Origin: Tropicibacter sp. R16_0
Lineage (GTDB): Bacteria; Pseudomonadota; Alphaproteobacteria; Rhodobacterales; Rhodobacteraceae
NCBI RefSeq assembly: GCF_017743935.1
Contig: NZ_JAGHRE010000002.1
Span: 310,001 to 374,000 of the forward strand
DNA: 64,000 nucleotides
Direction of reading: 5' to 3'
The translations under genes and the position numbers were made by a program. The notes beneath the pieces are model-generated. The model worked only from the letters and a program-made list of their open reading frames with translations, was not told the origin of the DNA and did not search any database. The first letter of the stretch is position 1, and each line of letters opens with the position of its first letter. Below, piece by piece: positions 11,768-44,217 of this stretch.

Positions 11768-11958
11768 GCACTCCCGCCCGTCGGCTGTGCATCAAAGATG
11801 CCCGCCTCCCGTTGGGCCGGGCCTCGCTACGCTCGGCGGTCTGTGATTTAAGCGATACAGCTGCCTGGTTCGAGACCGCGCCGAGCCGCAGGCGAGGCGC
11901 CCGGCCCAAGGCCGCTAGCGGGGCTGACGCAGTCAGGTCTGCTCGGGTGCGGGAGCGC
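11768..11958. repeat. 191-bp structured palindromic repeat, copy 1
   Basis: An imperfect palindrome with terminal arms GCACTCCCGC / GCGGGAGCGC and inner arms TTGGGCC (11812-11818) / GGCCCAA (11903-11909). It holds small hairpins GCATC-AAA-GATGC (11789-11801) and CTGAC-GCA-GTCAG (11924-11936). A second copy of exactly the same length lies at 44027-44217, with identical arms but changed and still paired hairpin bases. Located between convergent genes. Confidence 0.85.
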
Positions 11959-11999: not shown

Positions 12000-12028
12000 A
12001 AACGCCGCCCGGTAGGGCGGCGTTTCTT
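12000..12028. terminator. Rho-independent terminator
   Basis: Perfect 11-bp stem AAACGCCGCCC/GGGCGGCGTTT (12000-12010, 12015-12025) with GGTA loop, followed by CTTGTT on the plus strand and preceded by A-rich sequence. It sits just past the end of the minus-strand livM and can serve both converging genes. Confidence 0.8.
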
Positions 12029-44026: not shown

Positions 44027-44217
44027 GCGCTCCCGCCCGTCGTCCGTGTCCCTTGTGGGACACCTCCTCCCGTTGGGCCCAGCCTCGCTGCGCTCGGCGG
44101 TTGGCGCCTGTGGCGAACCATATGCCCCAAGCGGGACCGCGCCGCGCGATGCGCGGCGCTCGGCCCAAAGCCGTTAGCGGGGCTGGCGCAGCCAGGATCG
44201 CTCGGGTGCGGGAGTGC
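44027..44217. repeat. 191-bp structured palindromic repeat, copy 2
   Basis: The same length and arm layout as copy 1 (11768-11958): terminal arms GCGCTCCCGC / GCGGGAGTGC and inner arms TTGGGCC (44073-44079) / GGCCCAA (44162-44168). Hairpins occupy the same relative positions with different bases: GTGTCCC-TTGT-GGGACAC (44046-44063) and CTGGC-GCA-GCCAG (44083-44095). A 9-bp hairpin GCGCCGCGC/GCGCGGCGC sits at 44139-44159. It fills the whole space between two convergent genes. Confidence 0.85.

Follow-up and report, generated by a model that had tools for sequence, protein, structure and literature searches.

Two stretches of a 64,000-nucleotide piece of the Tropicibacter sp. R16_0 genome (contig NZ_JAGHRE010000002.1, positions 310,001 to 374,000; hereafter the window) have equal length and common arms, and raise the question of what kind of element they are and whether their folding is under selection. 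The original prediction described both as exactly 191 bp, and this was borne out at 11768-11958 (copy 1) and 44027-44217 (copy 2). The ends said to be shared (GCACTCCCGC/GCGGGAGCGC and GCGCTCCCGC/GCGGGAGTGC) and the TTGGGCC/GGCCCAA inner arms were found. Both hairpins singled out there were confirmed: the first differs in letters with pairing kept (GCATC-AAA-GATGC versus GTGTCCC-TTGT-GGGACAC), and the one at offset 162 carries a double change (CTGAC-GCA-GTCAG versus CTGGC-GCA-GCCAG). The equal length itself is a coincidence, with compensating indels in the alignment of the two copies.

A full element is built of two inverted half-units flanking a variable spacer. Copy 1 (left or L unit, spacer, inverted right or R unit; + strand) has its head block CTCCCGCCCGTCG at 11771-11783 (+ strand), hairpin A (GCATC-AAA-GATGC) at 11789-11801 (- strand, on which mismatches of the family are wobbles) and a second near-invariant block, CTCCCGTTGGGC, at 11806-11817 (+ strand). 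The position of hairpin A between the two blocks was read from the copies. These blocks, of 12-13 nt, were exact in 157/193 and 167/193 parsed copies, respectively, and the hairpin that they flank is almost free in sequence. The TTGGGC of the second block pairs with GCCCAA at 11904-11909, within the GGCCCAA (11903-11909, + strand) that partners the TTGGGCC arm. This long arm encloses two inner imperfect palindromes and the variable spacer. In copy 1 the palindromes were read from the sequence as inner arm B1, CCTCGCTACGCTCGG (11822-11836, - strand, with G.A/A.G on that strand), and inner arm B2, CCGAGCCGCAGGCGAGG (11881-11897, + strand). Arm C (CCG..AGCG..CTGAC-GCA-GTCAG..CGCT..CGGG) has its hairpin at 11924-11936, with family wobbles on the + strand. 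The end block of the R unit, CTCGGGTGCGGGAG (11942-11955, + strand), supplies the GCGGGAG that forms the terminal, outer stem with CTCCCGC. Copy 2 (+ strand) has the head block at 44030-44042, hairpin A (GTGTCCC-TTGT-GGGACAC) at 44046-44063 on the - strand, and, on the + strand, the second block at 44067-44078, the GGCCCAA arm at 44162-44168, the arm C hairpin (CTGGC-GCA-GCCAG) at 44183-44195 and the end block at 44201-44214.

Both copies lie between convergent genes. The stop of a HerA-like helicase gene (PF05872; 10163-11743, + strand) is 24 bp ahead of copy 1, and beyond the copy is a BPD_transp_2 permease gene (PF02653; 12045-13349, - strand). A short-chain dehydrogenase gene (PF00106; 43245-44018, + strand) stops 8 bp ahead of copy 2, and an acyl-CoA thioesterase gene (PF02551; 44227-45099, - strand) ends 9 bp beyond it. 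In folding on the given strand, both copies beat 200/200 dinucleotide shuffles (z -3.65 for copy 1 and -4.17 for copy 2); on the other strand, copy 1 beat 199/200 (z -3.42) and copy 2 198/200 (z -2.84).

The window's own genome (G000) was compared with three further genomes of the genus (G001, G002 and G003). Elements orthologous to copy 1 are present in all three, and the site of copy 2 holds a full element in G003 and shortened ones in G001 and G002. A separate hairpin beyond copy 1 (AAACGCCGCCC-GGTA-GGGCGGCGTTT, 12000-12025) is kept in all four species, with between-species changes within and beside its loop. Judged by its sequence it is probably a bidirectional terminator, and copy 1 would then belong to the 3' UTR of the helicase gene.

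BLASTN with copy 1 as query hit 52 pieces of G000. R1, a covariance model derived from 30 copies, had 67, 66, 72 and 71 matches at E<=1e-9 in G000, G002, G003 and G001, respectively, some being second-strand reports of one palindromic copy; the listed copies number 66, 61, 67 and 69. Match length in the genus was 107 to 256 bp. The covariance-model count proposed in the original prediction thus stands at 66 copies in the window's own genome. What it had named as speaking against its reading was a family of two copies only, or one lacking covariation; the outcome was the opposite, 66 copies with covariation across a 120-sequence alignment.

The strict left-unit pattern (CTCCCGCCCGTCG-N14..28-CTCCCGTTGGGC) had 111 exact matches in G000 and 0 for the reversed control, so that many half-elements exist besides the full copies. 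Twenty G000 regions picked from weak R1 hits (27-50 bits) contained a left unit in every case, and in 10 of the 20 it is joined to a right unit of another type (CTGCCGTCCGCAGGACGCAAGGCCGATAGGCCGCGCAG and close variants). In Tropicimonas (L223) and in two G000 copies an inverted left unit takes the place of the right unit (L-L), and at G000 C2:40427 an inverted right unit takes that of the left unit (R-R). Further arrangements were seen. A second composite form, in which a left unit is joined to a hairpin (GGCCAGGCTCA..TGAGCCTGGCC) and to a third unit resembling CTGCCGTCCGCAGGACGCAAGGCCGATAGGCCGCGCAG, is carried by loci L324, L327, L329, L331, L333, L336, L337, L340, L341 and L343. The element at L096 (G000 C36:122525-122981) has as its arm C a long hairpin that is near-perfect and unrelated in sequence; this form is the same in G002, truncated in G003 and absent in G001. 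Copies are also clustered in places, with four in 19 kb at G000 C11:126078-144996, a near-equal spacing in G003 and a counterpart in G001.

R1 found no strong match in 37 relatives from other genera, with weak hits in three. The model misses half-units, since genome G010 gave 4 weak R1 hits yet holds 16 exact left units. Of 390 genomes drawn from the order, 47 contained the left unit, covering 20 of 140 genera; the reversed-pattern control was 0 in 8 genomes and 0 in the 390. An exact variant of the left unit occurred in 64 stretches of a species-level genome collection. Related units are also present in a Ruegeria pomeroyi strain other than the laboratory model DSS-3. Forty-nine of these lay outside the genus, under the titles Ruegeria, Leisingera, Phaeobacter, Pseudophaeobacter, Tritonibacter, Aliiruegeria, Tropicimonas, Rhabdonatronobacter, Roseobacter, Halocynthiibacter, or unnamed Rhodobacteraceae/Rhodobacterales. 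Half-units outnumber full elements in other genera (54 versus 23), by a simple rule under which diverged right units can be missed. Phage carriage was not detected (0 matches in 50,697 phage records, and no gapped pattern in viral contigs), and 72,556 plasmid records yielded 3 partial matches. Two of these were inspected and proved to be half-units, one on a megaplasmid from Ruegeria sp. TM1040 and one on a megaplasmid from Tritonibacter mobilis. The two megaplasmid half-units (L218 2001-2067 and L219 2001-2068) precede apparently the same downstream gene, annotated as aspartate carbamoyltransferase in L218 and carrying no annotation in L219.

Genes around the copies were called with our own codon-usage script. 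In G000, 48/66 copies were between convergent genes and 18 in tandem gaps, with 0 in divergent gaps. The corresponding numbers were 46, 21 and 0 for the 67 copies of G003, and 41, 25 and 1 for the 69 copies of G001, where two more were of undetermined type. As a baseline, 9/60 gene gaps of the window are convergent, and two of these 9 hold the elements. Flanking gene 3' ends were within 40 bp of the element in 73/114 cases in G000, and 6/66 copies overlapped a called gene. For other genera, to which the caller is less suited, 11/23 full elements were placed between convergent and 4/23 between divergent genes, and 3/54 half-units between divergent genes. A gene 3' end lay within 60 bp of the head in 29 of these half-units and within 60 bp of the tail in 8. 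Among G000 half-unit regions the head faced a gene end in 14/21, and no start codon was within 60 bp of a head. Full elements in tandem gaps had no orientation bias relative to transcription (29 versus 35, three genomes).

Other terminators were not depleted where an element is present (24/122 convergent gaps, versus 3/26 without one), by a scan insensitive enough to miss the obvious hairpin at 12000-12025. The units are followed by CGGGAG and often CCCC, and inspection by eye revealed no U-tract behind them, which argues that they are not ordinary intrinsic terminators. For the terminator module that the original prediction had offered as one identity, the position agrees; terminator activity of the element is putative.

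Selection on folding was assessed in two ways. In a 120-copy alignment, which was fitted to the structure of the model and so favours covariation, 97.2% of cells pair, 16/42 pairs changed on both sides (7.1 in shuffles; 0/500 shuffles as high) and both-side-changed cells numbered 171 versus 50.1 expected; a slid-partner control on the same alignment gave 5-8 pairs changed on both sides. Tests on hairpin A are independent of that alignment. From 209 copies, 171 were parsed for the module-diversity count, 193 for the block-identity count and 203 hairpins A for the strand count, and the parsed copies of G000 had 47 different modules of hairpin A. Counted as distinct modules, which are not independent evolutionary events, hairpin A had at least 5 Watson-Crick pairs in 138/146 modules in the genus (shuffled 17%), in 82/85 from eight other genomes (shuffled 20%) and in 126/132 from the draw of the order (shuffled 17%). 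This last set refers to the matches listed, with G000, repeats and two G191 modules left out. Some of the hairpins are AU-rich (TTTTTC/GAAAAA).

Among 42 orthologous hairpins retained between G000 and G003, 5 compensated changes were counted versus 22 one-sided ones, the latter including 14 A.C and 2 G.T on the + strand. The 14 hairpins retained between G000 and G001 had 8 compensated and 9 one-sided changes. Taken together, the comparisons point to a folding capacity that is kept while the folding letters change almost freely, and to a possible role at message ends.

Since a G.U pair corresponds to an A.C mismatch in the complementary strand, wobbles can indicate the strand that folds. Single mismatches in hairpin A stems that are Watson-Crick elsewhere, read on the + strand, were A.C versus G.T at 56:1 in the genus, 19:3 in the eight genomes and 18:2 in the draw of the order (among the matches listed), whereas arm C had 20 G.T versus 3 A.C on that strand. 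One-sided binomial probabilities, which ignore shared ancestry, were 4e-16, 4e-4, 2e-4 and, for arm C, 2e-4. With wobble allowed, hairpin A gave 36 G.T and 57 A.C on the + strand, and 144 G.T and 3 A.C on the - strand. The fitted alignment had 168 G.T versus 3 A.C in arm C (+ strand), and ratios of G.T to A.C were less one-sided elsewhere, at 7:1 for the outer stem, 9:6 for the long arm and 53:23 for the inner arms. Selection on arms A and C thus acts on single, opposite strands, in each unit the strand reading from inner arm to end block. This bias argues for selection on a single strand, RNA or single-stranded DNA, and against a symmetric function of double-stranded DNA; the selected strand is most likely RNA. 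Selection on a folded single strand, the simplest reading in the original prediction, is upheld by covariation over many copies, a pairing hairpin of nearly free sequence and mismatch wobbles that are mostly one-stranded per arm.

The orthologous sites of the 66 G000 copies held an element in 62 cases in G003 and 51 in G001. Both flanks matched at 49 of the 51 G000-G001 sites, and 2 were inverted. For the four G000 copies without a match in G003, that genome has truncated or diverged versions. Conversely, 5 of the 67 G003 copies had no G000 partner: one of them has a truncated counterpart in G000, the site of another surrounds a partial G000 copy, a third has only one flank in G000 and a fourth has no G000 match. 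There were 15 G000 copies without a partner in G001 and 18 G001 copies without one in G000. The one examined among the 15, at G000 C36:122677, has no element in G001 and no visible target duplication. For G002, the sample was 7 of the 61 copies listed. The original prediction had asked whether insertion sites are empty in relatives; 5 sites were aligned, none was empty with a target duplication, and most sites are common between species. The positions are old, 62/66 being common with the sister species G003.

Sequence turns over at these positions. At the copy 1 site two of the four species have GCATCAAAGATGC as hairpin A; another has TTTTTC-TGAC-GAAAAA and the last has GTTTC-TGAC-GAAAC, and the inner arm also varies. 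For 40 orthologous G000-G001 pairs, identity of the flanking 21 bp was.52/.53 versus.47/.48 in non-orthologous pairs (near random), and that of hairpin A was.64 versus.62. Block identity was.973 and.974 in orthologues and.98 in non-orthologous copies; since the blocks are equally alike in non-orthologous copies, conversion as well as selection could preserve their likeness. Hairpin A identity was below 70% in 6/60 G000-G003 pairs and in 29/46 G000-G001 pairs; one of three replaced G000-G003 hairpins shown differs in its left flank too. Within G001 hairpin A is homogenised (identity.78 within the species versus.63-.65 between species). A homogeneous 143-bp match was observed in 32/69 G001 copies, including sites that have 180-255-bp forms in other species. 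This is concerted evolution at shared positions, for which ectopic gene conversion between copies would be the natural mechanism.

The reading that we favour, at a little short of an even chance, is a family of structured 3'-end modules that would act as RNA and be bidirectional between convergent genes. Position, heads turned to gene ends, pairing in hairpin A, one-strand wobbles, constrained blocks and retained sites all speak for it. On the selected strand a half-unit reads GCCCAACGGGAG - hairpin - CGACGGGCGGGAG, with G-rich fixed blocks, and its head usually faces the stop codon of the neighbouring gene. An inverted doublet between convergent genes would be a bidirectional element: the transcript of each gene would cross both units, and its 3'-most unit would lie in the strand where pairing is selected. 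That unit may form, trim or guard the mRNA end, by ending trailing polymerase or stopping 3' exonucleases, ahead of any antisense reading of the neighbour, and a putative trans-acting factor may read the fixed blocks together with the hairpin shape. The AU-rich hairpins (TTTTTC/GAAAAA) count against an mRNA role in that they would be weak roadblocks; they suggest that shape is recognised and that the hairpin is more than a roadblock. The excess of one-sided over compensated changes (22 versus 5) in closely related orthologous hairpins also stands against the 3'-end reading, as do the lack of orientation bias in tandem gaps and the divergent placements in other genera. An mRNA role accounts poorly for lone L units behind a tandem gene, whose selected strand is antisense to both genes.

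Such antisense lone units keep a single-strand DNA reading alive. The elements could be immobile or rarely mobile relatives in kind of REP/REPIN sequences, with hairpin and blocks as the site of a putative or lost strand-specific nuclease or transposase, the inverted doublets as REPIN analogues and the 3'-end positions as the least harmful insertion spots. We consider this unlikely, though to be taken seriously: the inverted doublet with its variable spacer, the L-R, L-L, R-R and L-R2 mosaics, the strand-specific hairpins and the species-specific 143-bp form in G001 all fit, and G.T wobble is tolerated in DNA hairpins too. Against it, PF01797 (Y1/RAYT), the sole transposase class searched, was found in 0/4 genomes of the genus and in 5/14 control genomes, and all but 4 of the 66 G000 sites are common with G003, those 4 being truncated or diverged there. 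A currently active mobile element is not supported, given the shared sites, the lack of RAYT and the truncated or diverged partners at aligned sites. Of the three identities in the original prediction, a non-coding RNA element fits best, and a mobile palindrome has little present-day support. Mutation might instead maintain the palindromes with no selected function, template switching keeping the arms complementary and gene conversion spreading variants. Whole-hairpin replacement at the same site (the pairs below 70% identity above) and homogenisation within G001 would be expected, but the one-strand wobble bias, opposite in arms A and C, is not predicted, nor are near-invariant blocks beside free hairpins and near absence from divergent gaps in the genus; this makes the explanation improbable. 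A DNA-level chromosome element is judged equally improbable. Convergent gaps are where supercoils collide, and sites for gyrase or a nucleoid protein have been proposed for the BIMEs of E. coli; a nearly symmetric element in such gaps could be a cruciform or protein site of that kind, absorbing positive supercoils. A double-stranded or cruciform function should however constrain both strands alike, and arms A and C wobble on one strand.

The ways in which converging genes in bacteria end transcription before it enters the partner gene are only partly understood, and this repeat family is seemingly dedicated to the ends of convergent genes in several roseobacter genera. Rather short of an even chance, but quite conceivably, it represents a novel class of bacterial 3'-end elements that are recognised by shape. 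The fixed blocks would accept any hairpin of about 5-8 pairs between them, selected on one strand at more than 100 sites per genome, often in inverted doublets serving both convergent transcripts; the sites would be strongly constrained, exchange hairpin letters among themselves and be read by a putative trans-acting factor. G000 holds more than 100 natural variants of one structural module, so that requirements for structure and for sequence are separable by comparison. The family also exemplifies, in bacteria, a concerted turnover of sequence at positions that are shared, and counting its wobbles indicates the working strand with genome sequence as the only input.

Known systems were compared. 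Rfam gave 0 matches at gathering score in the window. In 12 loci of the genus Falsiruegeria no hit at E<=1 fell on an element, and 8 loci covering other forms and genera gave two weak hits, both far under the gathering score. The element was not identified with an Rfam RNA gene: the sole strong hit, at L020, is a neighbouring RNase P RNA gene, about 65 bp from an element copy (L020 1783-2183; G000 C11:687477). A literature search, judged by titles and abstract beginnings and with subscription papers mostly outside its scope, found no description of the family, and papers containing a block string were unrelated by title.

Like bidirectional intrinsic terminators, the family lies close behind both stop codons; it differs in being multi-arm and about 200 bp long, with no U-tract seen. 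The CcsR or 'cuckoo' RNAs of Rhodobacter and rhizobia have hairpins exposing a CUYCUCCC motif, and many family copies carry CTCCTCCCG on the + strand; there is no Rfam match, however, and hairpin A is selected on the other strand. ERIC/IRU, NEMIS and similar sequences are likewise intergenic palindromic repeats, co-transcribed with neighbours in published cases (PMC1590033). A free hairpin between fixed blocks is not described in the available part of that source, and sequence comparison with them was at the level of Rfam. REP, BIME and REPIN sequences are extragenic many-copy palindromes with inverted doublets, mosaics and compensating changes (partly PMC2817692, otherwise general background). 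The present family is similarly extragenic, numerous, palindromic and arranged in inverted doublets. It differs in having no GT[AG]G head beside the palindrome, where the two blocks stand instead, no RAYT/Y1 gene in the four genomes and positions mostly common between species, and in its longer unit, where a free hairpin is framed by the two fixed blocks of 12-13 nt.
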